DNA of 37,523 nucleotides from an uncultured Bacteroidia bacterium. GTDB taxonomy: Bacteria > Bacteroidota > Bacteroidia > Bacteroidales > F082. Made by a program: the position numbers and the translations under genes. Below are positions 8,494 through 21,836 of the stretch, piece after piece. Each line of letters opens with the position of its first letter. The stretch's first letter is position 1. The stretch lies in assembly GCA_902802535.1 (NCBI GenBank), contig CADCML010000017.1, positions 1-37,523 of the forward strand. Reading direction: 5' to 3'. Below the pieces are notes generated by a model. That model searched no databases and was not told where the DNA came from. It saw only the letters and a list, made by a program, of their open reading frames with translations.

Positions 8494-8517
8494 AGGAAAT
8501 CGTTTACCGATTTCCTT
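8493..8517. terminator. Hairpin spanning the stop codon of the DUF262-HNH gene
   Basis: A perfect 10-bp stem, AAGGAAATCG at 8493-8502 with CGATTTCCTT at 8508-8517, and a 5-base loop that contains most of the minus-strand stop codon. The T tract after it is very short, so its terminator activity is uncertain. The REP-like array begins directly next to it. Confidence 0.45.
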
Positions 8518-9676
8518 TTGCCCGATTGTGCGTCTTGCATAACATCTGGCAATTTGAAATGTCCGTTTCGCCGCCTTTGCTCCAGGCCGTCACGTGGTCG
8601 GCATCCATTTCGGTTAATTTCCAAATGCGGGTACGGTTGGCATCGTGGCCGATGGCGCAATACGGACAATTGGAAATGCCTTCCGCCTCGGCGGCCTCGG
8701 TTTGCTTTGCGTAAACGGCCTTTTTCGTTGGCTCGTCGAACACGCGGACATTCAACAGGCGCGGTTCCTGACAGTCGCCCAAAATGTATTCGAAAATGCC
8801 TTTCTTCTCCTTGACATAGAAACTTTCGTACAACTCACGCACCTTTGTGGCTACGGCCTCAGGGTTGTAGGCATTCTTGTGGTATTTCTCATACAACTCG
8901 CCCCATTTCAGGCCACACATCTCCCTTTCGGGCGCGATGTCGAAAACAGAAGTAATCCAATCAATTACAGAAGTAAAATATGCTTTCATCTCTTGGATGT
9001 TGTCGTCGTAACGGTGGGCTGACATGTATTCCTCCGTATGGCCGCGGCTCACCCAATCCAATGCAGCGGCAAGGAAGTCCTGCCGCTTGGCTGTGCCTGA
9101 AATGAAGCAACTCCATTTGTTGATGTTGGTGTTGTTGGAATTGCTGAATTCCTCCTTGGCCTTAGTCACAAAGGGGCCAGAATATACGGCGTTAAGCGTT
9201 TCTTGCACATTGAGCGGGATGCCCACAATATTGATGGTGCGAAACCAGTCCTTGATTTCCTTTTCCGTGCCTTCACAAACGTAAATCAACAGCTTGGTGT
9301 TCAGGAACTTCTCTTGCTCGTCCTTGTTTAATGCGGTGAAGTACCAAGGTTTGCCATCGGTGTCTATCCACGCAAATTTCTCGGTAATGAAGCGACCTAA
9401 AGAGGTGATGCGTTGCTGACCGTCTAAGACTTCGTATCGATCCTCGCCTACTTTCGAGAAATAGATAAGCCCAAGCGGATAGCCGTTGCGCACGGATTGA
9501 ATCACATCCACTTCTTTCTTGCCTCCGTTTTCGGCATAAAGATAATGGCGCTGAAACTCAGGCTGGATGGTCAGCCGCCCCGAAAGACCGTAAAGGCCTT
9601 TCCCTTCATATTCGTTATACTGGAAGCCTTTGCAGATGTCGCCGATGGTCCAGTCTTGATAAAGTGTTGCTTTCAT
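8504..9676 (-). CDS. DUF262 and HNH nuclease domain protein (GmrSD-like), putative restriction endonuclease
   Basis: A 390-residue protein. The amino-terminal DUF262 domain (about 10-220) contains the signature LDGQQR at residues 84-89 (nucleotide-binding/hydrolysis motif of DndB/GmrS-type domains). The carboxy terminus holds a zinc-supported HNH nuclease: Cys-Pro-Tyr-Cys near residue 333, then [12 protein letters not shown] with His361, Asn375 in SNCQMLC, and His383 in KTHNRAK. DUF262 plus HNH is the architecture of GmrSD-type modification-dependent nucleases. Here its ATG overlaps the stop of an adenine methyltransferase gene by 4 bp (ATGA), so the two are translationally coupled. This suggests the methyltransferase protects DNA against this nuclease. 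The restriction role is inference; the domains are seen directly. Confidence 0.85.
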
Positions 9677-10743
9677 GGTTGTTGTTTTTTGCGGATTGCT
9701 AATCTTTTGTATTTATCCACTCCGTTTATTGTGGCCGTAGCAAAATCCCACGGTCCATCTTTCCCATGGTTAAAAACGCCAATTATTTCAAATTGCTCAG
9801 GACAATATTTATCCAGAAAAGAGATAGGAACTCCCATAACACCTTCATAATCACTAGGAATGGCATCTGTAAATGGAACTTCTATGGCATCATAATTATC
9901 ATACTTCTGATAACCGTTAACACGAATTTCCAAATGTTTGCTATATCGAAGATTGTCTTTCATTGTCATCAATTGCAAAGGTTCATGGCGACGACCTATT
10001 TCAATATTTGTATACCAACGAACACCAGGGACTCTGATTAATCCTTCGCGATAATCATGAGAATTAAAATAGCTAAGTGTTGTATTAATCTCATATGGCG
10101 TTTCAAAATAACCAGCACCTCGAACAAAAGGATTATCCGTCCATATCTTGTTTTCTTTAATAAGAGGGAAAACCTCTTTGTATGTATTAGCATTGATATT
10201 ACCAATTATTGCAAACTGCTTTCCCGCTCCCATTATCCAATTCAAGAAGTCTCTAAATAAACTAAAAGGAGGGTTAGTCACAATAATATCCGCTTCATCG
10301 CGCAGTTTACATACCTCCTTACTGCGAAAGTCTCCATCGCCTTCGAGATAATGCCATTCTAAGTCATCAATGTCAATGCGTCCGTTTTGGTTGGTGTCGC
10401 GGGTAAGCTCGAAAATTTTTCCTTTGATACGGGTCTTGTTTGCGTCAAACCAAGGTGATTCTGTCTCAAAGAGCGTGGGTTGGTAGTCCTTGTATTTCTT
10501 GCTCTCCACGGCATACGAGGTGCTGATGAGCCGCTTCAGCCCTAAACGCTCGAAATTCTGTGCGAAGAATCGAGTGAAATTGCTCCATTCAGGATCGTCA
10601 CAAGGCAACAGCACCGTCTTGTCACGAAACGTGTCAGGATCGTACTCCAGAAAGGCGTTCATTTCTTTCTGTATATCCGAATACTGAGTGTAGAACTCGT
10701 CGTTCTTCGCTGTCTTGGCATCAGTCAATTTAGTATTTGCCAT
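9673..10743 (-). CDS. EcoRI-family adenine-specific DNA methyltransferase
   Basis: A 356-residue protein. The amino terminus ([20 protein letters not shown]) and the segment [10 protein letters not shown] at 47-56 are hallmarks of the EcoRI-methylase family. The catalytic motif is NPPF at 157-160 in [11 protein letters not shown], typical of N6-adenine methyltransferases. An EF-hand-like loop (Asp116, Asn118, Asn120, Asp124, Asp127) precedes it. It is the first gene of a two-gene operon with the DUF262-HNH nuclease and has a long structured leader. No ribosome binding site is visible before its ATG, and the leader's outer stem ends 13 bases upstream. The target site cannot be deduced; EcoRI specificity (GAATTC) should not be assumed. 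Confidence 0.88.
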
Positions 10744-10755
10744 ACGCTTTGCATT

Positions 10756-11002
10756 TGTGCGTATTGCTTATCTTCGGATTGCAGGAACTCTCAGAAAACC
10801 AAAAAGCATGGAACGCTCTTTTTTCCATGCTCTAAGGTCCTGAGAATCACCTGCAATCACGGATAAGTCACGTCCATGCAAAACGCACAGACGCTTGCGA
10901 CTTATTCGTGTGATTGCTTCTTTTGAATTTCTCAGGTTCTAGAGCATTCCGAATAACAGCAAACGCTAGTTAAAACGAGCTCGGATTTCTCCCCGAACTC
11001 GC
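10756..11002 (-). promoter_or_regulatory. Structured leader with mutually exclusive hairpins upstream of the methyltransferase
   Basis: The middle arm (10823-10889) can pair with the downstream arm (10756-10813) through TTCCATGC/GCATGGAA, CTGAGA/TCTCAG, CCTGCAATC/GATTGCAGG, GATAAG/CTTATC and GCAAAACGCACA/TGTGCGTATTGC. The same middle arm can instead pair with the upstream arm (10899-10947) through ATGCTCTA/TAGAGCAT, CCTGAGA/TCTCAGG, GCAATCAC/GTGATTGC and ATAAGTC/GACTTAT. A further hairpin lies at 10976-11002. The two pairings compete, as in attenuators and riboswitches, and the second one reaches to 13 bases before the start codon. The base pairing is seen directly; a regulatory role is inferred. 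Repeated operators or a decayed mobile element are alternatives. Confidence 0.45.
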
Positions 11003-11004
11003 TG

Positions 11005-11012
11005 CAAATATA
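11005..11012 (-). promoter_or_regulatory. -7 promoter box for the restriction-modification operon
   Basis: TATATTTG on the minus strand fits TAnnTTTG. Transcription would start near 10998 and give a leader of about 255 bases containing the alternative hairpins. There is no convincing -33 element at 19-21 bases. Confidence 0.45.
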
Positions 11013-11052
11013 CAAAAAAGGGTTCAATGCCATAGTGCCTTGGTATTTTTCT

Positions 11053-11060
11053 TATTTTTG
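11053..11060 (+). promoter_or_regulatory. -7 promoter box for the RAYT gene
   Basis: TATTTTTG fits TAnnTTTG, 25 bases before the ATG at 11085. The -33 element is not recognisable. Confidence 0.4.
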
Positions 11061-11084
11061 TCACGAAAAACCAACGAATATCCC

Positions 11085-11789
11085 ATGTCCCATTATAACC
11101 CAGAAATCCATCATCGCCGTTCCATTCGCCTGAAAGGTTATGATTACGCCTCGGAAGGTTTGTATTTCGTCACCATTTGCACGCAGAACCGCGAATGTTT
11201 GTTCGGCGAAATCAAAAACGACGAAATGGTATTGAACGATGCAGGTCGCATGGTGGAAAAATGGTATCGCAAGACGCAAGAAAAATTCCCCGACATCATT
11301 TGCCATGAAATGGTGATTATGCCCAATCATTTCCATTGCATTTGGGAAAACGTGGGGGCGTCCGTAGGGGCGGACCCATGTGTCCGCCCTGACCCATGTG
11401 TCCGCCCTGACCCATGTGTCCGCCCTGTTGAACCAAACAACAAACCTATTGTTGGTAATAACAATTGTGTTGTTGATGAGGAGGCACACGCGAATGAGGG
11501 CGCACACGCGGGTGCGCCCCTACGGATGGACGATACGGATTTGGGTGAACATACAGGTTCGCCATTGTCGGCGGTGGTGCGATGGTTCAAAACCATGTCC
11601 ACCAACGAATACATCCGTGGGGTGAAACAATTGGGGTGGCCGCCATTTGACCGAAAATTGTGGCAACGCAATTATTACGAACACATCATCCGCGACGATG
11701 AATCATTGCAAAACATATCGTATTACATAATCAACAACGCCGCCCATTGGCAGGAAGACCAATTCTACCAACCGCCAAAAACGGTATGA
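11085..11789 (+). CDS. REP-associated tyrosine transposase (RAYT, IS200/Y1-like)
   Basis: A 234-residue protein; the ATG at 11085 gives the normal family start (MSHYNPEIHHRRSIRLKGYD). The HUH motif is His82-Phe-His84 in VIMPNHFHCIW. The carboxy-terminal block LWQRNYYEHIIRDDESL, typical of RAYTs, carries the candidate catalytic tyrosines 197-198. RAYTs nick single-stranded DNA at REP palindromes and are domesticated or slow-moving relatives of IS200 transposases. Residues about 91-160, between the HUH strand and the SPLSAVVRWFK helix, are an insertion translated from palindromic repeats, including three copies of Asp-Pro-Cys-Val-Arg-Pro. The frame stays open, so the protein is probably intact. 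Palindromes of the same type lie on both sides of the neighbouring restriction-modification operon. Confidence 0.9.
   Translation: MSHYNPEIHHRRSIRLKGYDYASEGLYFVTICTQNRECLFGEIKNDEMVLNDAGRMVEKWYRKTQEKFPDIICHEMVIMPNHFHCIWENVGASVGADPCVRPDPCVRPDPCVRPVEPNNKPIVGNNNCVVDEEAHANEGAHAGAPLRMDDTDLGEHTGSPLSAVVRWFKTMSTNEYIRGVKQLGWPPFDRKLWQRNYYEHIIRDDESLQNISYYIINNAAHWQEDQFYQPPKTV
11364..11426 (+). repeat. REP-like palindrome plus two extra 18-bp half-units inside the RAYT reading frame
   Basis: A palindrome at 11364-11390 (arms GGGGCGGAC / GTCCGCCC) is followed by two further exact copies of the 18-mer GACCCATGTGTCCGCCCT (11391-11408, 11409-11426). Eighteen bases keep the frame, so each copy encodes Asp-Pro-Cys-Val-Arg-Pro (residues 97-114). 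Confidence 0.95.
11498..11523 (+). repeat. REP-like palindrome (GCAC variant) inside the RAYT gene
   Basis: GGGCGCACACGCGGGTGCGC... with arms GGGCGCAC / GTGCGCCC, translated as Gly-Ala-His-Ala-Gly-Ala-Pro. A degenerate half-copy (GAGGCACACGCGAAT) lies just upstream at about 11481-11495. Confidence 0.85.
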
Positions 11790-11843
11790 TTTCTCCTTCG
11801 ATAGTACGTTGGCCAAGGTGATGACGTTGAATGTTGTTTTGGT

Positions 11844-11871
11844 GTAGGGGCGGATCCATGGGTCCGCCCTA
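11844..11871. repeat. REP-like palindrome (GGAT variant) between RAYT and aroK
   Basis: Arms GGGGCGGA / TCCGCCC around ATCCATGGG. It lies 55 bp after the RAYT stop codon, in the convergent gap with aroK, and may serve as a terminator-like hairpin. Confidence 0.88.
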
Positions 11872-11939
11872 TTGGTAAAACATCCATCCAATTCACCTTA
11901 ACAAATGATATATCATTGATAACGAATGATGTATCTATA

Positions 11940-11967
11940 TAGGGCGCACACGTGGGTGCGCCCCTAC
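11940..11967. repeat. REP-like palindrome (GCAC variant) abutting the aroK 3' end
   Basis: TAGGGCGCAC ... GTGCGCCCCTA, ending 3 bp from the aroK stop. A perfect A/T palindrome, AATGATATATCATT, lies at 11904-11917 between this unit and the previous one. Confidence 0.88.
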
Positions 11968-11970
11968 AAT

Positions 11971-12477
11971 TTAATGATTTTCAATCAACCCCATCAACCC
12001 CTCCAAATCAAAATCCTCGGACTTCACCGTGATTTTGGCTTGCTCGTAGTAGGGCAAACGGGACGTGTAATGCTGGCTCACGAATTCCAAAAGCTCCTCC
12101 TCCGACTTGCCACGGGCTAAGGGACGCTTGTGCCTCGAATGGAGCACGCGATCGACGGCGGCTGCGGGACTGATGCGCATGAAGACGGTCAGACCGTGCT
12201 GGTTCATCCATTCCATGTTGTCGAAATAGCAGGCCGTGCCGCCACCCGTGGAAATCACCGTGTTTTCAAGGTGTTCCGTGGCTTTCAGCACCTCCGATTC
12301 CAATTTGCGGTAAAGCGGCTCGTCGTATTTTTGGAAAAAATCGTCGACGGAAATGCGGTATTTTTCCTCAAACAAGGCATCCGTGTCGGCCACCTCCCAA
12401 CCGAGGCGGTTGGCCAAGCGTTTGGCGGCGGTAGTTTTGCCCGCACCCATGTAGCCGACGAGATAGATTCGATTCAA
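11971..12477 (-). CDS. aroK: Shikimate kinase
   Basis: A 168-residue kinase that phosphorylates shikimate at O3 with ATP in the aromatic pathway. The Walker A loop is GYMGAGKTT (Gly8-Thr16). Shikimate is bound by Asp33 in DTDALF, Arg57 in YRKLESEVL and the Gly-Gly-Gly at 78-80 (STGGG). The lid arginine is in HKRPLARG. The start codon is TTG at 12477: no ATG precedes the family-typical MNRIYLVGYMG-like start, and an in-frame TAA lies just upstream. It is the last gene of the lipoprotein-radical SAM operon, 25 bp after the enzyme's stop. That position looks like simple co-transcription rather than a shared pathway. Confidence 0.95.
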   Translation of the reverse strand: MNRIYLVGYMGAGKTTAAKRLANRLGWEVADTDALFEEKYRISVDDFFQKYDEPLYRKLESEVLKATEHLENTVISTGGGTACYFDNMEWMNQHGLTVFMRISPAAAVDRVLHSRHKRPLARGKSEEELLEFVSQHYTSRLPYYEQAKITVKSEDFDLEGLMGLIENH

Positions 12478-12502
12478 AATTTAAAATTCAAAGATTTAAA
12501 AT

Positions 12503-13588
12503 TCAATATTCTTTAGTTTCTGCAATCATTTGATATTGACATAATTGCAATTTACCGTTGCCGTCGCGGAGGTGCATTCCGTTGCCTTGGCAATAACGCC
12601 ACATCTTGCAATTTGAGCATTGGTCGGTTTTCATCCAACGGCGGTTACGGTAGACTTGGAACTTGTTCTGCCAAACCTCCCAAAAACTGTCCTTGTAGAT
12701 GTTGCCCTGATGGTAGTCGCTGCGGATGCTGAGGCAGCCCGAAATGGAGCCGTCGGCCAATACCGAGGCAATGTTGATGCCAGCGCTACACGAATAATAA
12801 TGGTTGCGCACCTCGCCCTCGTACTTGCCGAGGAAACCGTCGCAGCCATAGTCGGCGCGAATCTTGCCTTGCAAACGTGTGTCTTTGATAAACTCCATCA
12901 TTTCAACGAATTGCTCGTTGGAAAGGCGCAAGTCGGGGTCGTTGGCGGCGCGTCCCGAAGGAAACACTGTGAACAATCGCCAACGGCGGATGCCCAAAGA
13001 AATCAGGAAATCGCGGAACTGCGGCAGATACTTGATAGTGCGTTGGTTGACACAAGTAATGACATCCCAAGTAAGGCTCGGGTGTTGCTTCATGGCTTCC
13101 ACAGCGCGCAACACGTTCTTGTAACTCATGGGGTTACCACGCATCCAGTTGTGGTCTTCCTCGAAGCCATCGAAACTAACCGCCAACGACTTCAGACCCG
13201 CCCTGACAAACTCATCGAGTTTCTCAGCGGAAAGCAGCATACCGTTACAGACCATGCCCCAAATGAAACCACGCTTAGTGATTTCCTCGCCGCAATGCGC
13301 CAAGTCATTGCGCATGGTGGGTTCGCCGCCCGTGGTAATAACCATCACCTTGGCGGGGTCTTGATGGGCACGCACCTCGTCAAGCACCTTGGCAAAATCC
13401 TCGAAAGGCATGTCGTCTTTTTCGGAGAGCATACGGCAATCGGAGCCACAATGACGGCAATTGAGATTGCAGCGCAGGGTGCATTCCCAGAAAAGTTGGT
13501 GAAGCTCGTGCTCCTCGATGCGCTGTTGCAGCACCTGATGATTGAGTTCGAACATTACTTTTTTATAGAAGCCGAGGCGGTCACTCAT
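12503..13588 (-). CDS. Radical SAM/SPASM enzyme of the rSAM-lipoprotein system
   Basis: A 361-residue radical SAM enzyme. The SAM-cleaving cluster motif is Cys40-x3-Cys44-x2-Cys47 in LFWECTLRCNLNCRHCGSDC, with the SAM-binding TTGGEPTM segment following. A SPASM domain with extra Fe-S cysteines fills the carboxy terminus: CSAGINIASVLADG..GCLSI, then CSNCKMWRYC and a last Cys. SPASM enzymes usually modify peptides or proteins. The LFWECTLRCNLNCRHCGSDC region matches what I recall of the TIGR04133 family ('radical SAM enzyme, rSAM/lipoprotein system'), encoded next to lipoproteins with a YG[T/S/A]P motif. Its ATG overlaps the stop of the upstream lipoprotein gene (ATGA). The substrates are therefore probably the two lipoproteins; the chemistry is unknown. 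Confidence 0.9.
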   Translation of the reverse strand: MSDRLGFYKKVMFELNHQVLQQRIEEHELHQLFWECTLRCNLNCRHCGSDCRMLSEKDDMPFEDFAKVLDEVRAHQDPAKVMVITTGGEPTMRNDLAHCGEEITKRGFIWGMVCNGMLLSAEKLDEFVRAGLKSLAVSFDGFEEDHNWMRGNPMSYKNVLRAVEAMKQHPSLTWDVITCVNQRTIKYLPQFRDFLISLGIRRWRLFTVFPSGRAANDPDLRLSNEQFVEMMEFIKDTRLQGKIRADYGCDGFLGKYEGEVRNHYYSCSAGINIASVLADGSISGCLSIRSDYHQGNIYKDSFWEVWQNKFQVYRNRRWMKTDQCSNCKMWRYCQGNGMHLRDGNGKLQLCQYQMIAETKEY

Positions 13589-13953
13589 TTTCCAGATTTT
13601 TCAGTTGATGTTGGAATGGTTGGACTGCCATATAAAATAGGAATAGGCCGCTCCCAAAGGATGGAATCTATTTCCATCCATTTCCTCAACGAAACCGTGT
13701 CTTCAACACCATCCAACTTTCTGTTTATCATAAAAAGATCATAATAACAAGATGACTTTTCTCTCAACAAGTCATAATCAACCGAATCAACTTTCATCTC
13801 CTCAAGTTGATTAATTCTCTCAATGAGAGCTTGCCGTTTTTTGGTCAGTTGCCGTATTTGTGAGCGTGTCAAACCGTTTTGCATCGTGCAGGCGGCAAGA
13901 AACGCCAGTCCTGTCAAGGTGCAAATCCAAACCGAACGAACCAACTTTTTCAT
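13585..13953 (-). CDS. Small YGSP-containing lipoprotein, putative radical SAM substrate (short form)
   Basis: A 122-residue lipoprotein. The signal sequence MKKLVRSVWICTLTGLAFLA is followed by a lipobox ending at Cys22 (LAAC). A short predicted coiled coil (about 30-55, RQLTKKRQALIERINQLEEM) comes next, and a single Tyr-Gly-Ser-Pro motif at residues 108-111 sits near the end. Its signal sequence is nearly identical to that of the next lipoprotein, so the pair arose by duplication. It resembles in layout the TIGR04134-type lipoproteins paired with the adjacent radical SAM family, although it is shorter and lacks the carboxypeptidase-regulatory-like domain often seen there. It is coupled by ATGA overlap to the enzyme gene. 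Function unknown. Confidence 0.8.
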   Translation of the reverse strand: MKKLVRSVWICTLTGLAFLAACTMQNGLTRSQIRQLTKKRQALIERINQLEEMKVDSVDYDLLREKSSCYYDLFMINRKLDGVEDTVSLRKWMEIDSILWERPIPILYGSPTIPTSTEKSGK

Positions 13954-13961
13954 AGCCCTAA

Positions 13962-14480
13962 TTAACGATCAGGAACCGGTGCGCCATACAGTGTTTCCGT
14001 AGCACCATTGTTAATCTTTCCGCTTTTAGGCGAATCCAAGTCTTTCATCTCCTTGCGGATAGCCTGAATTTCATCCCTCATGCGCTGGGTTTCGCGGCCA
14101 TATTCCTCGATGATTTCGGGCGAGCCGTAAACACAGGCTCCCTCACGCCGTTGCAAGGCGGCCTGAAGCTCGGCAATGCGTTCCTGCAAGGCCACACGCC
14201 GGGCACTCTTCTCCAAATCCACATCTTCGCCCAACTTGGCATTGATGGAATCGAGCTGACTTCTAAGGCGATAGGTATTCAACGCATAATTGGCAATGAC
14301 TTCGGGCGAACCGTAAACGGCAGCACCTTCACGCGCCGCCAAAATCCCCTGGATGGAATCACGTTCCATGACGAGTTGCTTCTTCTCAGCCTTCGAAAGA
14401 CCTTTCGTGCTACAGCAGGCGGCCAAGAAAGCCAGTCCCGACAAGGCACTGATCCAAACCGTTCGAACTACTTTTTTCAT
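13962..14480 (-). CDS. YG[S/A]P-repeat lipoprotein, putative radical SAM substrate (long form)
   Basis: A 172-residue lipoprotein with signal sequence MKKVVRTVWISALSGLAFLA and lipobox cysteine 22. The mature part contains two copies of a unit of about 60 residues: a charged helix, then REGA-(A/C)-VYGSPE-(V/I)-I, then a helix with Tyr/Thr and Arg-rich heptads. A third motif, LYGAP, stands four residues before the end. The motifs are at residues 56-59, 118-121 and 165-168. The helices between them look like coiled coil. It is first in the operon, 8 bp before the second lipoprotein gene, and has its own -7 box. The repeated motif suggests several modification or binding sites on one protein. Confidence 0.82.
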   Translation of the reverse strand: MKKVVRTVWISALSGLAFLAACCSTKGLSKAEKKQLVMERDSIQGILAAREGAAVYGSPEVIANYALNTYRLRSQLDSINAKLGEDVDLEKSARRVALQERIAELQAALQRREGACVYGSPEIIEEYGRETQRMRDEIQAIRKEMKDLDSPKSGKINNGATETLYGAPVPDR

Positions 14481-14503
14481 AGCTATGCAATGTTATAACG
14501 CTG

Positions 14504-14511
14504 CAAAGATA
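14504..14511 (-). promoter_or_regulatory. -7 promoter box for the lipoprotein-radical SAM-aroK operon
   Basis: TATCTTTG on the minus strand fits TAnnTTTG, 24 bases upstream of the ATG at 14480. The -33 region is only T-rich. Confidence 0.5.
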
Positions 14512-14538
14512 ATAAAAAAACCGGAAAACGACGAAAAG

Positions 14539-14572
14539 TTATCAACACGGCATGTTGAAAAGTTGTTGAAAA
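14539..14572. other. Cluster of three TNTCAACA (DnaA-box-like) 9-mers
   Basis: TTATCAACA at 14539-14547 (plus) and TTTTCAACA on the minus strand at 14561-14553 and 14572-14564. They lie in the 207-bp gap between divergent genes, followed by a strongly A/T-rich tract at about 14639-14685. The first differs from TTATNCACA at one position, the others at two. They may be chance A/T-rich words or binding sites of an unknown regulator. Confidence 0.25.
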
Positions 14573-14611
14573 CTTATAGAGTCACAATGCCTTCCGTCAA
14601 GCACAAATACC

Positions 14612-14619
14612 TAATTTTG
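14612..14619 (+). promoter_or_regulatory. -7 promoter box for the large modular protein
   Basis: TAATTTTG fits TAnnTTTG. The leader of about 60 bases to the ATG at 14688 is A/T-rich. No -33 element is evident. Confidence 0.4.
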
Positions 14620-14687
14620 ACCATTTGATGAATCCATTACCCATTTTGAATTAAATCATTAAATATCAAATAATTAAATTTACCACA

Positions 14688-17600
14688 ATGAAAAAAAGAT
14701 TCACTTTACTCATCACGGCCTTCATGCTGCTGATGACAAGTCCAATTTGGGGACAGACCAAAGCAGAAGTAGTTGCCTACACCTTAGACGGAACCATAAC
14801 AGGAGGTTCTGCCGGTTATGCAATTGAAAGTGAGATTACACAAAACGAAATCACATGGATGGTGATGGGCAACACCACGATGAATCCATGGCGTATCGGA
14901 GGCAAGAGTCTCACGGACGAAAACCGCCCTGTTTACTCAACAGACCCAATCAGCGACGACATCACCAAGATTGTCGTCACCCACGGCACGGCTACCAACG
15001 TCACCGTTAACTCCATGACTCTTATTGTTTCGGCCAACTCCGATTTCAGCGACCCGACAAGCACCATTTTAGGAGACTTTGCCGAAAGCTCGACGACGAC
15101 ATTCCTGAGACCTTCGGCAACCGACTGGACGGACATGTATTACAAAATCATTTACAATGTGACCATTACCTCCTCCAGCAACAAATTCATACAATTCATC
15201 AGTGCAGAGTTTTACAAGGAAGACGGCAGTGCCCCGCAACTCACCGTGGACACCCCGACCTTCGACCCTGCCACTGGCACTTATTATGAAACCCAACAAG
15301 TGAGCATCAGCTGCGCTACGGAAGGCGCCACCATCCGCTACACCGACGACGACAGCGAACCTACCGAAAGCAGCACACTTTACAGCACACCCATCGAAGT
15401 GTCGACGAACACGACCCTGAAAGCCAAGGCCTTCAAGAGTGGCTACACCGAAAGCAACACGGCCACGGCCACCTATACCATCCCCGCCCTCATCACCATC
15501 GCCGAGGCAAGGGCTTTGGCCAACAACGAATATGCTTTGGTGCAAGGTGTGGTGACCTTCATCGACGGCAGGAACGTATACGTCCAAGATGCCACAGGCG
15601 GCCTCGACCTCTATCTCAACGCGAGCGCTTCGGGCCTCGCCTTGGGCGACCAAGTGAGAGCATACGGCAAGAAGACGGTCTACAACGGCCTCGTCGAACT
15701 CACAGGCATCAACCAGAACAGCAGCGCCTTCAGCATCATCTCGTCGGGCAACCCACTGCCCGTGGCCACCAAAACCATCGCCGAAATCCTTGAAGGCGGT
15801 GCCGATGCCCTGCAATGCACCCGCGTGAAGATTGAGAGCGCCACCATCGGTGTCATCAACACCGGCGGTAACACCCCGCTGACGCAAAACGGAAGCAGCA
15901 TCAACATTTACAAAGTTCCGGCACTCACCGGCATTGAAGAAGGCGACGAAGTGGACGTCATCGGCGTGGTGGGTTACTTCAACTCGGCCCAAATCCGTGT
16001 GGCCATAGCCGACGATGTCGTGTTGAGCGAGACTCCCGTCATCCCCGACCCGACCTTGACCGTCTCGGCAAGCGAACTCAGTGATTTTCGCTACACTTAC
16101 GGCAATGGTCCCTCGGCAGTGAAGAACTTCACCGTTTCGGGTTCCGACCTCACGAGTGCCGTCACCCTTACTGCACCTACGAACTACGAGCTGAGCCTCA
16201 GCCCCGACAACGGCTATTTCGACAGCGACGAACTTTCGCCCGTCAGTGGCACCCTCGCTGAAACTACCATTTATGTCAGGCTGAAAGCTGGATTGGCCGT
16301 GGGCAACTATACAGGTAACATCACCATAGTTTCGGGCACACTCAGCTACACGGTCGCCCTAAGCGGCATGGTCGATGCCATGCCCGTGGCCGCCACCCCG
16401 ACCTTTACCCCTGACGCTGGCACTTATCTCACGTCGGTGAATGTCACCATCAGTTGTGAGACTGAAGGTGCCGCCATCCATTACACTTTAGACGGCAGCA
16501 CCCCGACCGAAACAAGTCCCACCTACAGCACACCCATCACGGTGAGCACCACGACAACCATCAAGGCCATCTCCGTTGTTTCGGGCTACGAAAACAGCTC
16601 AGTCGCCGAGGCCCTCTACACCATCAATGAACCTATGACCATCGCCGAGGCCCGCGTCTTGGCCAACAACCAATACGCCTGCGTGGAAGGCACCGTGACC
16701 TACATCACGGGCCGCAACGTCTACATTCAAGATGCCACGGGCGGCATCGACCTCTACCTCAACAGCAACACCGTGCCGTCGGCCCTCGCCATGGGCGACA
16801 ACGTGCGTGCCTATGGCAAAAAGACCATTTACAACGGCCTCGTCGAGCTGACAGGTATCAACGGCAACGATGCCAATGTGTTCACCATCATTTCATCGGG
16901 CAACACGTTGCCTTTGGCCGTTCAGACCATCGCCGACATCAACAGCGACTACAGCAGCAGCAACCTGTTGCAGGCCACCCGCGTCAAGATTGAGAACGCC
17001 GTCATTGGAGCCATCAACCCGAGCGGCAACACCGTCATCACCCAAAACGGCAGCAGCCTCAACGTCTACCAAATTCCTACCGTCGAAGGCATGGTGCAAG
17101 GCGACTGGGTGACCATCACTGGCATCATCGGCTGCCACAACGCGCCGCAACTCCTTGTGGCCTCCGCCAACGATGTGGAATTCAGCCACCGTCCTGTCCT
17201 GACCGCCAACCCGACCTCGCTCAGTGGGTTTACCTACGAGTTTGAGGATGGCGGTCCGTCCGACATCCAAAGCTTCGTCTTGGCTGGTACCCAGCTCATC
17301 GGCGACGTGGCCATCTACCCCACAGAGAGTTTCGAGGTGTCGACCTTTGGAGGCACAAGCTTCATTGCCGAGAATCCAGCCATGGTTTTCATCCCCTCCT
17401 CTGGCCACTTCTTCGACATCGCCATCTATGCTCGCCTGAAAGCTGGTCTTGAAGTCGGAACCTACAACGAACAAATCGCCATTGTTTCCGAGGGCGCCGA
17501 CACCTTATATGTCAACGTTTCGGGCACCGTCACGGGTGACACTCCCACGCCTCCCGACCCGCCCACTCCGCCTACGCCTGGCGATGGCAATTACATCCGC

Positions 17601-20600
17601 GTGAACGATTTGAGCAGCCTCACCGAAGGTGCCTACGTCGTGTTTGCCGCACGTTTTGATGAAAACGCCGCCGACTATTACGCCATGAGCAATGCCTCTT
17701 CGGGCAAGCCCACGGGTGTGTTCTTTACCTCTGCCACCGCCAATGACAACGAAGTCCTGCCCGCCTCCATCGTTGACGAAGAAAGCAGCTATTATTGGAT
17801 TGTCGGCGTGACGGCCAACGGCTACACCTTCACCAATGCAGACGGTGAGTTGATTGGCTACACAAACGGCACCAACTTTGCCACGGGCGGCGACAACACC
17901 GAATGGAGCATCGCCATCGAAACCGCTGGTGATAACGCCATGGTGCCTGGATATACCGGCTTCTATATCACCAACTTCAACACTCCAGCCAGAGGTTTCT
18001 CCTTGAACAACCAACACAATTACGGTGCCTATGCTGTTTCCAACAACAATAATAGCGGTTACAACTTCTACCTCGACCTCTTCGTGAAGACCGAAGGCGT
18101 TGTGCCACCCACTCCGACCGTGGCCACGCCTACCTTCACGCCCGATGGAGGCACCTATTATGAAGAGCAGACCGTGAGCATCGCCTGTGCGACCGACGGT
18201 GCCACCATTTATTACAGCACGGTTTCAGAAAACGGCCCATGGACTGCCTACACCGAGGCCATCACCGTCGACGAGAGCATGACGATTTGGGCCTACGCCA
18301 CAAAGGAAGGCTACAACGACAGCCCCGTTGCCGAGGCCAACTACACCATCCAACTCGGTGTGGTCACCATCTTCAACCAAGACTGGGAAGGCGATATGAA
18401 CGGCTGGACCTTCGTCAATGTGGCAGGTGAAGCCGAATGGAACGTTGCCACTTACCAAGGCAACCATTATGCCTACGCCAATGGCCACAACCAAGGCGCC
18501 AACATCGACTGGTGCATTTCGCCCGCCTTCAACCTCGATGCCTATGACAACCCGATTTTGAGCTTCCGTACGGCGAAGAACTTTACTGGCAACGACCTTG
18601 AAGTCTTCTTCTCCAACAACTACGACGGCACCAACCCGAACAACGCCATTTGGACTTCATTGACATGTGCCCTCTCCACAGGTGGCTGGAACTGGGTTGA
18701 ATCAGGCGACATTGACCTGAGCAGCTTCAGCGGCACCAACTGCTACATCGGCTTCATGTACACCTGCAACGAAACCGAAGCCGCAGGTTGGGAGGTAGAC
18801 GACATCTTGCTCGTTGGCCAAACTTCGGAGCCTGTCCTCACGGTAACGCCTCTGACTTTGACAGGTTTCACTTACGTCGAAGGCAACGGCCCGTCGGATG
18901 AGCAGTCGTTCGTCATCACAGGCATGAACTTGACAGAACCTGTGATTATTGCCAACTCCGCAGGCACTCTTTTCGAGACTTCGCTCACCTCTGGTGACGA
19001 CTTCGTGCACGAGCCAAACATAACGCTTTACAACAACTTTGATCAAACCATTTATGTGAGAATGGCCGCAGGTCTGCCTGCTGGCTCATATTCTGCAGCA
19101 CTCGTCGTCGAATCAGAGCTTGACGACATCAGTATTTCATTGAGCGGCACCGTCGCTGCACCGCCTGTCCCTGGCGACGATTACATCCGCATCAGCGATG
19201 TCAGCCAACTTGCTGCTGGCAACCGCGTCATCCTCGCTGCCCGTTACGACGAAACGGCCAACGCATACGTCGCCATGCAGAACACCCTGACCAGCGGCAA
19301 GCTTGCCACAACCGAGTTCACCAGCGCGATGAACGGCACCGATGAAATCATTCCGTCAGAAATCCTCTCCACCGAGGACGACTATTACTGGACAGTCGGC
19401 ATCACCGCTGACGGCTACACCTTCACCAATGCCAGCGGCGATGTGATTGGCTACAACTCCAGCACCAATTTCAACATGAACGGAGAGAAGACCGATTGGA
19501 ACGTCACGGCAAGCGTTTCAGAAGAAAGTGCCATGGTTCCCAATTATTACGGTTTCAACATCATCAATGTCAATACCGACAACCGCGCCTTTGCGCTTAA
19601 CGCGAACCATGTCTGTGGCGCATACCACACACAAAACATGGCAGGTGCCGACTACAACTTCTTCCTCGACATCTTCATGCAAGGCGAAGGCGGAACATGC
19701 ACCGTGGCTGCCCCGACCTTCAACCCCGCTGGAGGCACCTACTATGAACCACAGGAGGTCACCATCAGCTGCACTACAGAAGGCGCGACCATCTGGTACA
19801 GCCTCATTTCCTGGAATGGTCCTTGGACCCCATACACAGAAGCCATCACAGTTGAAGAGTTTGCCTCCATCTGGGCATACGCCTCGAAGGAAGGCTGCAA
19901 CGACAGCCCCGTTGTCAATGCGGATTACATCATCCAAAACGACCTTACCATCATCTTCTGGCAAGAATGGGAAGACGATTGGGATCCATGGCACGGCTGG
20001 ACTGAACGCTGCACAATGGGCGACTCACTCTGGCGCGTCGCTTCATACGGTGGCAACCATTATGCTTACGCCAACGGCTACAACCATCCTCAAACCATTG
20101 ACTGGCTCATCTCGCCCGCCTTCGACTTGGATAGCTACGAGGATGTAGTGCTGACCTTTAATACTGCCAAAAACTACAACGGTCCCGACCTCGAAGTGTT
20201 CTTCTCCAATGATTACGACGGCGAAAATCCTGATGATGCCACTTGGATTTCATTGCCTTGCGAACTCTCTGAAGGTGGTTGGAACTGGGTCGCATCGGGC
20301 GACATCAGCCTTGACGAATTCAGCGGCTCGAACTGCTACATTGGCTTCAGATACACCAGTGACGAAGACGCAGCAGGTTGGGAGGTTGACGACATCAAAC
20401 TTGCCTCTGGAAGCACTTCGCCCACCCCAACTCTCATTGCCACACCTAATTACCTTGGTGACTTCAGTTATGTGGTGGGTCATGGCCCGTCAGAATCACA
20501 GAGTTACGTCTTATCAGGTGTCAACCTTTTTGACGAAGGCTATATCCACATAGTTTCTTGCTCATGGTACGAGATTTCTTTGGATAATGAAACGTTTACA

Positions 20601-21836
20601 GAAGTGCTTGAATTCCCCTGCACCGACCTACCTGCGACCGTCTATGTCCGTATGATGGAAGGCCTGGCCCCAAATACATACGATGGAGTTTACATTGCCA
20701 ATATGTACGGTTACGAAAACGACTATGCAAATGTGGCCGTCAATGTGTCTGGCATTGTCCACTACGAAAACGAGCCTGTGATTGACGCCTTTATGCCTCT
20801 GTATATCCAAGGCAACAACGGCTCGAACAACAACCGTGTACCTGTGGCTACGGCAGTGTATTTTGAAAACCTTGAACCCAACACTACCTATCGCTACACC
20901 AACCAATTCGTTGATGAAAACGACGGCCCCGAAACTGCTGGTGCCGGCAACGTGATTTATGCCAACCTTGAAGGCTTCTATCGCAGCACCAGTCCCAGCC
21001 TCTCGACCGAAGGCGGCTATGGCGAGTTCACTTCCGACGAAAACGGCGAGGCTTTCGCTTGGTTCATCAACGAGCCTACTGCCAACGCCCGATTCACGCC
21101 CGGCAACCACGTCTATCTCCGCATTCGCATCAATGACGGTCAAAACGGCACAACTGTTGCCCATACCTTCACCACTGAAGATTATGCCACCGTGCTCAAC
21201 TTCGGCACCGAAAACGACGAATACAGTGGATCGGCTTTCTACGCCAAGAGCGTGGAGGCAGCCATGACCTTTGCTATGCTGTTCTCAAGCGACGACGATT
21301 GGCGGCCTACCTATTCCACCACCATCGAAACCACGGGGGTGGACTATGGCAACATCAACCAATATGCTGACTTCTACAAGGAGGAAGTGGCGGGCAACGA
21401 CGGCTGGTTTGGCGGCATCGTGCCCAACGACAACGAGAACGGCATCAACATCATTTGGATCCTCGATATGGAGAGTTACGTCATCAACGACTACTACACC
21501 GAAAATGGCGAGTGGCATCCCGAGGCCAACACCGTCAACCCGACCAACGGCTTGGACGAACCCATCTTTATTGACCTCACCTACGATGGCGTTGACGAAC
21601 AAGAAGTGGAAGCCAAGGTAAAGGTTTGGAATGCCGACCACGAATTCATCATCGAGAACGGTGACAACAGCCATTACACAATGACGGTTTACAGCATCCT
21701 CGGCCAGCCGATGATGCAACAGCAAATCAACGCCGGCAGCACCGAGCGCATCAGCCACAGCCTCGCCACGGGTGTCTACATCATCAATTTGCAAAACAAC
21801 CAGAACAGCGTTTCTGTGAAAGTTATTGTTAGGTAA
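14688..21836 (+). CDS. Large modular secreted surface protein with T9SS sorting domain
   Basis: A 2382-residue protein with a signal peptide (to about residue 22, ending PIWGQ). After a unique amino-terminal domain (about 25-185) come two copies of [chitobiase C-terminal-like domain, OB-like domain with YVQDATGG, Ig-like domain] at about 185-565 and 565-948. A Pro/Thr linker follows. Then come two copies of [YIR(V/I)xD domain, chitobiase C-terminal-like domain, cleaved-adhesin-like domain with WEVDDI, Ig-like domain] at about 968-1493 and 1497-2025. A unique region (2025-2320) precedes a carboxy-terminal type IX sorting domain (VYSILGQPMMQQ ... VIVR). No catalytic motif is visible. Adhesins, proteases and glycan-binding proteins of Bacteroidota use these modules, so an adhesive or binding role at the cell surface is the best guess. 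It is monocistronic, with its own terminator. Confidence 0.9.
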   Translation: MKKRFTLLITAFMLLMTSPIWGQTKAEVVAYTLDGTITGGSAGYAIESEITQNEITWMVMGNTTMNPWRIGGKSLTDENRPVYSTDPISDDITKIVVTHGTATNVTVNSMTLIVSANSDFSDPTSTILGDFAESSTTTFLRPSATDWTDMYYKIIYNVTITSSSNKFIQFISAEFYKEDGSAPQLTVDTPTFDPATGTYYETQQVSISCATEGATIRYTDDDSEPTESSTLYSTPIEVSTNTTLKAKAFKSGYTESNTATATYTIPALITIAEARALANNEYALVQGVVTFIDGRNVYVQDATGGLDLYLNASASGLALGDQVRAYGKKTVYNGLVELTGINQNSSAFSIISSGNPLPVATKTIAEILEGGADALQCTRVKIESATIGVINTGGNTPLTQNGSSINIYKVPALTGIEEGDEVDVIGVVGYFNSAQIRVAIADDVVLSETPVIPDPTLTVSASELSDFRYTYGNGPSAVKNFTVSGSDLTSAVTLTAPTNYELSLSPDNGYFDSDELSPVSGTLAETTIYVRLKAGLAVGNYTGNITIVSGTLSYTVALSGMVDAMPVAATPTFTPDAGTYLTSVNVTISCETEGAAIHYTLDGSTPTETSPTYSTPITVSTTTTIKAISVVSGYENSSVAEALYTINEPMTIAEARVLANNQYACVEGTVTYITGRNVYIQDATGGIDLYLNSNTVPSALAMGDNVRAYGKKTIYNGLVELTGINGNDANVFTIISSGNTLPLAVQTIADINSDYSSSNLLQATRVKIENAVIGAINPSGNTVITQNGSSLNVYQIPTVEGMVQGDWVTITGIIGCHNAPQLLVASANDVEFSHRPVLTANPTSLSGFTYEFEDGGPSDIQSFVLAGTQLIGDVAIYPTESFEVSTFGGTSFIAENPAMVFIPSSGHFFDIAIYARLKAGLEVGTYNEQIAIVSEGADTLYVNVSGTVTGDTPTPPDPPTPPTPGDGNYIRVNDLSSLTEGAYVVFAARFDENAADYYAMSNASSGKPTGVFFTSATANDNEVLPASIVDEESSYYWIVGVTANGYTFTNADGELIGYTNGTNFATGGDNTEWSIAIETAGDNAMVPGYTGFYITNFNTPARGFSLNNQHNYGAYAVSNNNNSGYNFYLDLFVKTEGVVPPTPTVATPTFTPDGGTYYEEQTVSIACATDGATIYYSTVSENGPWTAYTEAITVDESMTIWAYATKEGYNDSPVAEANYTIQLGVVTIFNQDWEGDMNGWTFVNVAGEAEWNVATYQGNHYAYANGHNQGANIDWCISPAFNLDAYDNPILSFRTAKNFTGNDLEVFFSNNYDGTNPNNAIWTSLTCALSTGGWNWVESGDIDLSSFSGTNCYIGFMYTCNETEAAGWEVDDILLVGQTSEPVLTVTPLTLTGFTYVEGNGPSDEQSFVITGMNLTEPVIIANSAGTLFETSLTSGDDFVHEPNITLYNNFDQTIYVRMAAGLPAGSYSAALVVESELDDISISLSGTVAAPPVPGDDYIRISDVSQLAAGNRVILAARYDETANAYVAMQNTLTSGKLATTEFTSAMNGTDEIIPSEILSTEDDYYWTVGITADGYTFTNASGDVIGYNSSTNFNMNGEKTDWNVTASVSEESAMVPNYYGFNIINVNTDNRAFALNANHVCGAYHTQNMAGADYNFFLDIFMQGEGGTCTVAAPTFNPAGGTYYEPQEVTISCTTEGATIWYSLISWNGPWTPYTEAITVEEFASIWAYASKEGCNDSPVVNADYIIQNDLTIIFWQEWEDDWDPWHGWTERCTMGDSLWRVASYGGNHYAYANGYNHPQTIDWLISPAFDLDSYEDVVLTFNTAKNYNGPDLEVFFSNDYDGENPDDATWISLPCELSEGGWNWVASGDISLDEFSGSNCYIGFRYTSDEDAAGWEVDDIKLASGSTSPTPTLIATPNYLGDFSYVVGHGPSESQSYVLSGVNLFDEGYIHIVSCSWYEISLDNETFTEVLEFPCTDLPATVYVRMMEGLAPNTYDGVYIANMYGYENDYANVAVNVSGIVHYENEPVIDAFMPLYIQGNNGSNNNRVPVATAVYFENLEPNTTYRYTNQFVDENDGPETAGAGNVIYANLEGFYRSTSPSLSTEGGYGEFTSDENGEAFAWFINEPTANARFTPGNHVYLRIRINDGQNGTTVAHTFTTEDYATVLNFGTENDEYSGSAFYAKSVEAAMTFAMLFSSDDDWRPTYSTTIETTGVDYGNINQYADFYKEEVAGNDGWFGGIVPNDNENGINIIWILDMESYVINDYYTENGEWHPEANTVNPTNGLDEPIFIDLTYDGVDEQEVEAKVKVWNADHEFIIENGDNSHYTMTVYSILGQPMMQQQINAGSTERISHSLATGVYIINLQNNQNSVSVKVIVR
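15240..17530 (+). repeat. Internal tandem duplication of a three-domain module, about 1.14 kb each
   Basis: Copies at about 15240-16380 and 16380-17530. Matching landmarks include the TPTF(D/T)P start, the ITIAEARALANN / MTIAEARVLANN segment, (V/I)YVQDATGG / VYIQDATGG, and the YGKKT(V/I)YNGLVELTGI segment. Boundaries are approximate. Confidence 0.8.
17590..20760 (+). repeat. Internal tandem duplication of a four-domain module, about 1.58 kb each
   Basis: Copies at about 17590-19165 and 19175-20760. Shared landmarks: YIR(V/I)(N/S)D(L/V)SxL, YTFTNA(D/S)G, SPAF(N/D)LD, DLEVFFSN(N/D)YDG and AAGWEVDDI. The second copy is more diverged at its end. Confidence 0.8.

Follow-up and report, generated by a model that had tools for sequence, protein, structure and literature searches.

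Computational analysis of a 37,523-nucleotide stretch of DNA from an uncultured Bacteroidia bacterium (contig CADCML010000017.1 of assembly GCA_902802535.1, positions 1 to 37,523; hereafter the window) revealed a minus-strand operon encoding two lipoproteins and a radical S-adenosylmethionine (SAM) enzyme with a SPASM domain. Both lipoproteins carry the motif Tyr-Gly-x-Pro (YGxP), and we found that this motif recurs beside other enzymes of the same family, TIGR04133. We propose that the enzyme splices the backbone of its two lipoprotein substrates at X-Tyr-Gly-x-Pro, X being the residue before tyrosine. We put the probability of this reading at roughly 0.42; it stands no higher because near-tied profile scores and a long tree branch, described below, weigh against it.

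The three genes lie in tandem in the order lipoprotein 1 (172 residues; 13962-14480), lipoprotein 2 (122 residues; 13585-13953) and enzyme (361 residues; 12503-13588). The lipoprotein genes are separated by 8 bases, and the stop of lipoprotein 2 and the start of the enzyme share an ATGA overlap (13585-13588); the open reading frames (ORFs) and the sequence confirmed this arrangement, which a preliminary description had reported from the sequence alone. The signal regions, called near-identical there, are more fairly called similar: 17 of the first 22 residues are identical, and the lipobox at the end of each is LAAC (14415-14426 in lipoprotein 1 and 13888-13899 in lipoprotein 2). Lipoprotein 1 contains YGSP at Y56-P59 (14304-14315) and Y118-P121 (14118-14129) and YGAP at Y165-P168 (13977-13988), and lipoprotein 2 has a single YGSP near its C terminus (Y108-P111; 13621-13632). 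Among open segments of at least 60 residues, YGxP occurs at only two other places in the window, both antisense to longer frames.

The enzyme, the predicted maturase, scored 552.5 bits against TIGR04133 (cut-off 425) and exceeded the Pfam cut-offs for PF04055 Radical_SAM (81.8 bits) and SPASM (35.1 bits; cut-off 21.5), in agreement with its earlier description as a SPASM radical SAM enzyme. The cysteines of the CX3CX2C cluster motif (C40, C44 and C47) are invariant in 81/81 close TIGR04133 members, which share C51, C179 and C249 as additional invariant cysteines. The structure model of the enzyme had a predicted local distance difference test score (pLDDT) of 91.8, and no RiPP recognition element (RRE; RiPP, ribosomally synthesized and post-translationally modified peptide) domain was seen in the enzyme. 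The nearest Protein Data Bank sequences were BlsE (78 bits), SkfB (72) and PqqE (59), and a phage search returned two matches at 24% identity. Full-text searches with the names TIGR04133 and TIGR04134 and with descriptive phrases found no paper in the collection searched; the enzyme family itself is a known one.

The preliminary description had suggested the family pair TIGR04133/TIGR04134. The profile search bore this out for the enzyme; neither lipoprotein matched TIGR04134 (cut-off 39.8) at E ≤ 1 or any other NCBIfam or Pfam family over cut-off. From the window's order 295 genomes were sampled; the genus of the window is represented there by 4 genomes, its own (85% complete) among them. All 4 carry TIGR04133, and none gave a match to TIGR04134. 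We therefore give hardly any credence to an ordinary TIGR04133/TIGR04134 pair, which the enzyme's score favours and which is contradicted for the lipoproteins. The substrate type of the window's clade lies outside the NCBIfam TIGR04134 model.

We scored YGxP on the enzyme's sense strand, reading all three frames over 1 kb upstream and 1 kb downstream, in two sets of loci that overlap in species. Set A comprised the loci of the order sample plus the window, 85 in all, and set B comprised the best 80 of at least 571 loci found in genomes of GTDB species. Where the flank was short and showed no motif, the locus was dropped (L079 and L111 from set A; L196 and L238 from set B). YGxP was present at 73/83 scorable loci in set A and 67/78 in set B (73/85 and 67/80 with the dropped loci counted as misses), or at 68/81 and 55/76 when only upstream sequence was counted. 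The antisense strand of the same regions gave 11/83 and 10/78, and sense windows of 2 kb lying 1.5-3.5 kb away gave 10/75 and 11/69 in set A and 6/64 and 14/66 in set B; taken together, 9-21% of the control windows contained YGxP. A looser motif, YGx(1-2)P, to which variants such as AC-YGPAP contribute, was present at 76/83 and 76/80 loci and absent from 7/83 and 4/80, with a higher antisense background (19/83 and 22/80). The preliminary description had asked whether homologues of the enzyme regularly occur without a YGxP lipoprotein; mostly they do not, YGxP being missing within 1 kb at 10/83 loci in set A and 11/78 in set B, although some of the YGxP partners lack a lipobox. Its inference that both lipoproteins are substrates remains the best reading, since YGxP proteins, mostly lipoproteins, are the usual neighbours of TIGR04133.

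No YGxP was found at the outlier loci L083-L085, which scored 223-247 bits. In 14 genomes with a seemingly partnerless enzyme, unlinked A/G/S/T-C-Y-G-x-P sites were rarer than in a reversed control in 13 (in the remaining genome, G691, 2 versus 0), and inspection of 30 of the 52 unlinked sites flagged a lipobox-like sequence on one short frame only (L256, 20 residues). A TIGR04134 search of 15 seemingly partnerless genomes gave 7 over the cut-off, with YGxP in 6 (L273 left out). Five of these six proteins, on loci with an enzyme-like frame, are probably downstream neighbours of the enzyme; the stretch of L277, whose TIGR04134 protein has YGxP, contained no enzyme-like frame.

The motif is carried by proteins of several kinds. 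We counted as carriers proteins of at most 450 residues with a signal-like start and YGxP (n = 170). They include TIGR04134 carboxypeptidase-regulatory-like lipoproteins (for example, EYGTPYAD), lipoproteins with YGxP directly after the lipobox cysteine (FQAC-YGTP and AC-YGVP), KYGxP lipoproteins about 50-107 residues long, secreted proteins in which a probable signal peptidase site precedes YGxP (AQYGAP) and the coiled-coil lipoproteins of the window's clade. From 12 TIGR04134-like neighbours we built a profile, and it matched 113/170 carriers at E ≤ 1e-3, which rules out that the carriers are wholly unrelated to each other; the other 57, the window type included, did not match, and single-linkage clustering of these chained 45 together and was not clean. 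Because of the counts against the controls and the presence of the motif in more than one kind of carrier, YGxP is the best candidate for a modified site.

Some carriers lack a lipobox. At L173 of the window's clade (2367-2606), a short protein that has two YGPP motifs and one membrane segment is encoded between the lipoprotein and the enzyme. At three loci with Bacteroides titles (L227:5061-5567, L230:5019-5501 and L231:2240-2698), a small protein with two YGGP motifs is encoded just 3' of the enzyme; these proteins are possible non-lipoprotein substrates.

TIGR04133 homologues (E ≤ 1e-50) occur in 70/295 genomes of the order sample, over the cut-off in 61/295. TIGR04134 exceeds its cut-off in 39/295, and 38/39 of these genomes also have TIGR04133. 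The exception, G227, has no TIGR04133 match, and its TIGR04134 copy reads AQYGAIE, lacking the proline. Among 11 TIGR04134 copies read on contigs other than that of the enzyme, YGxP was kept in 7 and absent in 4, namely those of L151, L155 and G227 and one of the pair in L152. These observations bear on whether YGxP is instead an unmodified structural, sorting or binding motif, with the enzyme acting on another target. Such a motif would fit the frequent placement of YGxP directly after the lipobox cysteine or a likely signal peptidase site, where sorting signals lie, the TIGR04134-like majority of carriers, the enzyme loci without YGxP and the TIGR04134 copies that lack YGxP in enzyme-bearing genomes too. 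However, YGxP also occurs in hairpin loops, in tails and in lipobox-less proteins and tracks this enzyme across contexts, and the proline is missing from the copy in G227, where TIGR04133 had no match. We consider an unmodified motif distinctly unlikely.

Among the at least 571 confirmed TIGR04133 relatives in the GTDB scan, the best 80 were titled Bacteroidales, Bacteroidia, Alistipes, Prevotella, Parabacteroides, Phocaeicola, Paludibacter and similar names, and named relatives came mostly from gut and rumen. On a plasmid of Treponema saccharophilum (L293:3607-5083), a TIGR04133 enzyme lies beside a TIGR04134 lipoprotein with C-YGMP. This enzyme adjoins that of L071, from the window's order, in the tree (support 100/100), and transfer of a TIGR04133 locus between phyla appears likely from these sequences.

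The window's clade comprises 21 of the best 80 loci (L162-L182), with 67-95% identity. Its lipoproteins have 89 to 240 residues and one to three YGxP motifs each, set in a repeated module of approximately R-E-G-A-C/A-V-Y-G-S-P-E-I/V-I. Residue X was V in 43, L in 11 and I in 4 of 58 distinct motifs (3.28 bits); no position other than Y, G and P carried more information, though the motifs were selected on Y, G and P only. A second collection from the clade gave V 42, L 14, I 5 and Y 1 of 62, whereas the 165 motifs outside the clade had E 53, M 37, C 27, K 19 and others at X. In a model of lipoprotein 1 built with 19 sequences (mean pLDDT 77; predicted template modelling score 0.57), helices span residues 30-50, 59-82, 89-112 and 121-149. 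The first two YGSP motifs fall at loops 51-58 and 113-120, with the proline beginning the next helix, and the YGAP lies in the low-confidence C-terminal tail. The clade has its own substrate type, predicted to form helical hairpins whose loops hold YGSP. In the window lipoproteins the lipobox cysteine is followed by non-acidic residues; surface export in Bacteroidetes follows a rule of acidic residues at this place, by which these lipoproteins may face the periplasm.

The residue between glycine and proline, x, is less restricted than the YG[S/T/A]P of the preliminary description. In 227 distinct motifs from signal-bearing neighbours at 142/165 loci, selected with a filter that admits a few unrelated proteins, x was T in 62, S in 51, V in 34, P in 26, A in 13, C in 10, G in 8, M in 6, F in 5, I in 5, R in 3, N in 3 and Q in 1; beyond T, S and A, the motif extends to V, P, C, G and others. 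One of the glycine cases (L058) is probably an unrelated chance neighbour. The tally also bears on a three-residue cyclophane of the triceptide type, in which a tyrosine ring carbon would be joined to the β-carbon of x in Y-G-x. Cyclophane chemistry of radical SAM/SPASM enzymes acts on aromatic residues, and x is mostly T, S or V, all of which have a β-carbon, as do the S, S, A and S of the window sites. By contrast, glycine, without a β-carbon, occupies x in 8/227 motifs (L058 being doubtful) and proline in 26, and a cyclophane leaves the kept glycine and proline unexplained. We regard it as very improbable.

Splicing has a precedent in the PlpX family. PlpXY is reported to act on X-Y-G without requiring a RiPP leader, and it accepted 2/16 engineered tag constructs, both of the working FtsZ tag kind with GYGLPI. 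A natural YGxP is found on a Nostoc plasmid, where a TIGR04103 enzyme (853 bits; cut-off 725) adjoins a Nif11 precursor ending in ALYGLPPELF; a gene for 71 residues follows the enzyme in an ATGA overlap and, from its position, probably encodes PlpY. We also searched 72,556 plasmid records with the window enzyme (E ≤ 1e-20) and obtained 10 records. Three were of TIGR04133 type (46-54% identity; one unannotated), and the other seven were exactly the remaining records matched by a TIGR04103-like query. These seven are PlpX/GDL-like and are annotated as nif11 maturase 3, GDL maturase or plain radical SAM. TIGR04133 ranked third, after TIGR04103 and TIGR03913, in four of seven PlpX/GDL-like proteins (L138, L140, L144 and Agathobacter), and 16th and 19th for a NirJ2-like and a mycofactocin-like protein. 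Additionally, a segment G-Y/F-x-G/S..E/D...R/K before the first auxiliary-cluster cysteine was present in 81/81 close TIGR04133 members, 10/17 PlpX/GDL-like rows and 0/2 outgroup rows. The enzymes of L086 and Agathobacter share two of the three extra TIGR04133 cysteines, which is suggestive only.

If the enzyme is a splicease, it would modify the unfolded pre-lipoproteins in the cytoplasm and recognize X-Tyr-Gly-x-Pro directly, with no RRE domain. Each event would excise tyramine, with a predicted change of -135.07 Da per site. The modified lipoproteins would then be exported by Sec and lipidated, and would fold so that helical hairpins display the modified segments at their tips. Action in the cytoplasm before export had been called unusual for a radical SAM enzyme; it is less so than that, given that anaerobic sulfatase maturases (anSMEs) act in the cytoplasm on sulfatases that are later exported. 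The product would be an α-ketoamide, which as an electrophile could trap serine or cysteine proteases, with X facing the protease pocket. β-residues made by spliceases are reported to confer protease inhibition (PMC10373908). That Bacteroidales bear membrane-tethered arrays of such YGxP-spliced backbones, with α-ketoamides at the hairpin tips and the clade-specific X setting the protease trapped or another binding partner, is an extension that we hold to be unlikely. It would carry backbone splicing beyond secreted peptides into envelope proteins, and where these read C-Y-G-x-P, the lipidated cysteine would be the residue that is spliced.

The enzyme may instead modify YGxP by a different reaction centred on the tyrosine, glycine or proline, such as cross-linking of the tyrosine to the proline or the glycine, or epimerisation or dehydrogenation at the glycine. 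None of these is singled out by the sequence features, and the occurrence of YGxP beside a PlpX-family enzyme favours splicing over them; we take such a reaction to be possible but rather doubtful.

Several observations weigh against splicing. The window enzyme's scores for other families were near-tied (TIGR04053 123.6, AhbD 115.4, TIGR04103 115.2 and NirJ2 114.3 bits), and in the tree a branch of 1.68-1.71 separates TIGR04133 from the PlpX/GDL rows, a tree that is undecisive with its two distant outgroup rows. TIGR04133 ranked fourth in three of the PlpX/GDL-like proteins (L086, Nostoc and Azospirillum), behind AhbD or TIGR04053, and the G-Y/F segment was absent from 9/24 sampled TIGR04133 members and 7/17 PlpX/GDL-like rows. 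The full SPASM motif has seven cysteines; TIGR04133 has six (C267, C285, C324, C327, C333 and C350), with Gly337, kept in at least 90% of the 81 members, at the CX3C position. Reading of the ORFs revealed no PlpY-like RRE partner in the operon; one unlinked PqqD-like (PqqD-domain) gene lies elsewhere in the window's genome. On the substrate side, certain TIGR04133 loci have no YG neighbour at all, and, with most carriers TIGR04134-like, the motif could partly reflect shared descent. Two other precursors on the Nostoc stretch lack YG, and the GDL peptide motifs are PYGV, AYGA, LYGV, PYGA or PYGP rather than strict YGxP. PlpXY is reported not to have accepted LYGLPI tags in FtsZ or GYGVVFP tags, and the published splicease rule, X-Y-G, lacks a strict proline at +3. 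That any substrate is modified is, as of now, something that we infer.

Two related loci were observed alongside. At L086 (4016-6144), a TIGR04103-like enzyme is followed by a 216-residue frame in which KYGYP is repeated six times, in five cases as KYGYPC; from its sequence this frame looks like a multi-core precursor. On a Tropicibacter plasmid (L296:3674-7365), a PlpX/GDL-like radical SAM gene is followed by genes for a trypsin-like peptidase and an M23 peptidase, neighbours that may bear on a protease link of the PlpX/GDL-like enzyme group. Sequences LLYGEPP and YGRPEH at Chlorobi-like TIGR04103-like loci were considered as substrates and dropped, there being no clear genes.

In the surroundings of the operon, a possible Bacteroidetes-type -7 promoter element, TATCTTTG (14504-14511, minus strand), lies 5' of lipoprotein 1; the consensus of such elements is TAnnTTTG. 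Upstream and divergent from the operon, 14688-21836 encodes a 2382-residue protein that contains four repeats of the chitobiase C-terminal type and, at its end, a weak match to a type IX secretion tail that falls under the threshold. A shikimate kinase gene lies downstream. Rfam gave no family match within 10700-15000, and a terminator scan found none within 11800-14800. REP-like palindromic repeats of 27 nucleotides (GTAGGGGCGGACCCATGTGTCCGCCCT and relatives; six direct copies and several inverted pairs) occupy 11361-11970, in and just past an IS200-like (Y1_Tnp) transposase ORF, where they give an in-frame DPCVRP repeat. At 8504-10743, an EcoRI-type adenine methyltransferase gene (PF13651, 403 bits) is followed, with a 4-base overlap, by one for a GmrSD_N and HNH protein, a compact, restriction-modification-like pair.

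The TIGR04133 family is now given a testable site, X-Y-G-x-P, a predicted mass change and a minimal substrate in the one-site homologues of about 90 residues, such as those of 89-91 residues at L175, L176 and L179. If splicing is true, proteins with edited backbones would be a regular feature of the envelope in common gut bacteria.

Among known systems, the TIGR04133/TIGR04134 pair, classed in NCBIfam as hypothetical equivalogs, resembles the window operon in its TIGR04133 enzyme and in the order of a YGxP lipoprotein followed by the enzyme, but the window lipoproteins are coiled-coil proteins with one to three YGxP each and are not TIGR04134. The anSMEs (anSMEcpe, 4K36) differ, as a reading of both window lipoproteins found no sulfatase motif. 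The substrate motif of anSMEs is C/S-x-P-x-R, and they have all seven SPASM cysteines. The GDL-motif peptide maturase system (TIGR03913, with DUF1843 peptides), whose enzyme is close to PlpX, has YG near the N terminus in 6/9 small neighbours at four loci (for example, PYGVAIREAI, PYGAGIREA and PYGPAMVEA); unlike the window substrates, these peptides have no proline at +3, no signal peptide was seen in them and YG is absent from some copies. The PlpX splicease (TIGR04103, IPR026482), which works with PlpY on Nif11/NHLP precursors, differs in that the window enzyme scores 115.2 bits against a TIGR04103 cut-off of 725 and has no linked RRE partner, and in that the window substrates are exported lipoproteins with signal peptides whereas those of PlpX are leader-core peptides. 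PlpX is alike in being a SPASM enzyme with an X-Y-G core, in the YGxP of an engineered tag and of the Nostoc precursor and in allowing several sites per substrate; X-Y-G is likewise present in the window substrates, at three sites in lipoprotein 1 and one in lipoprotein 2.

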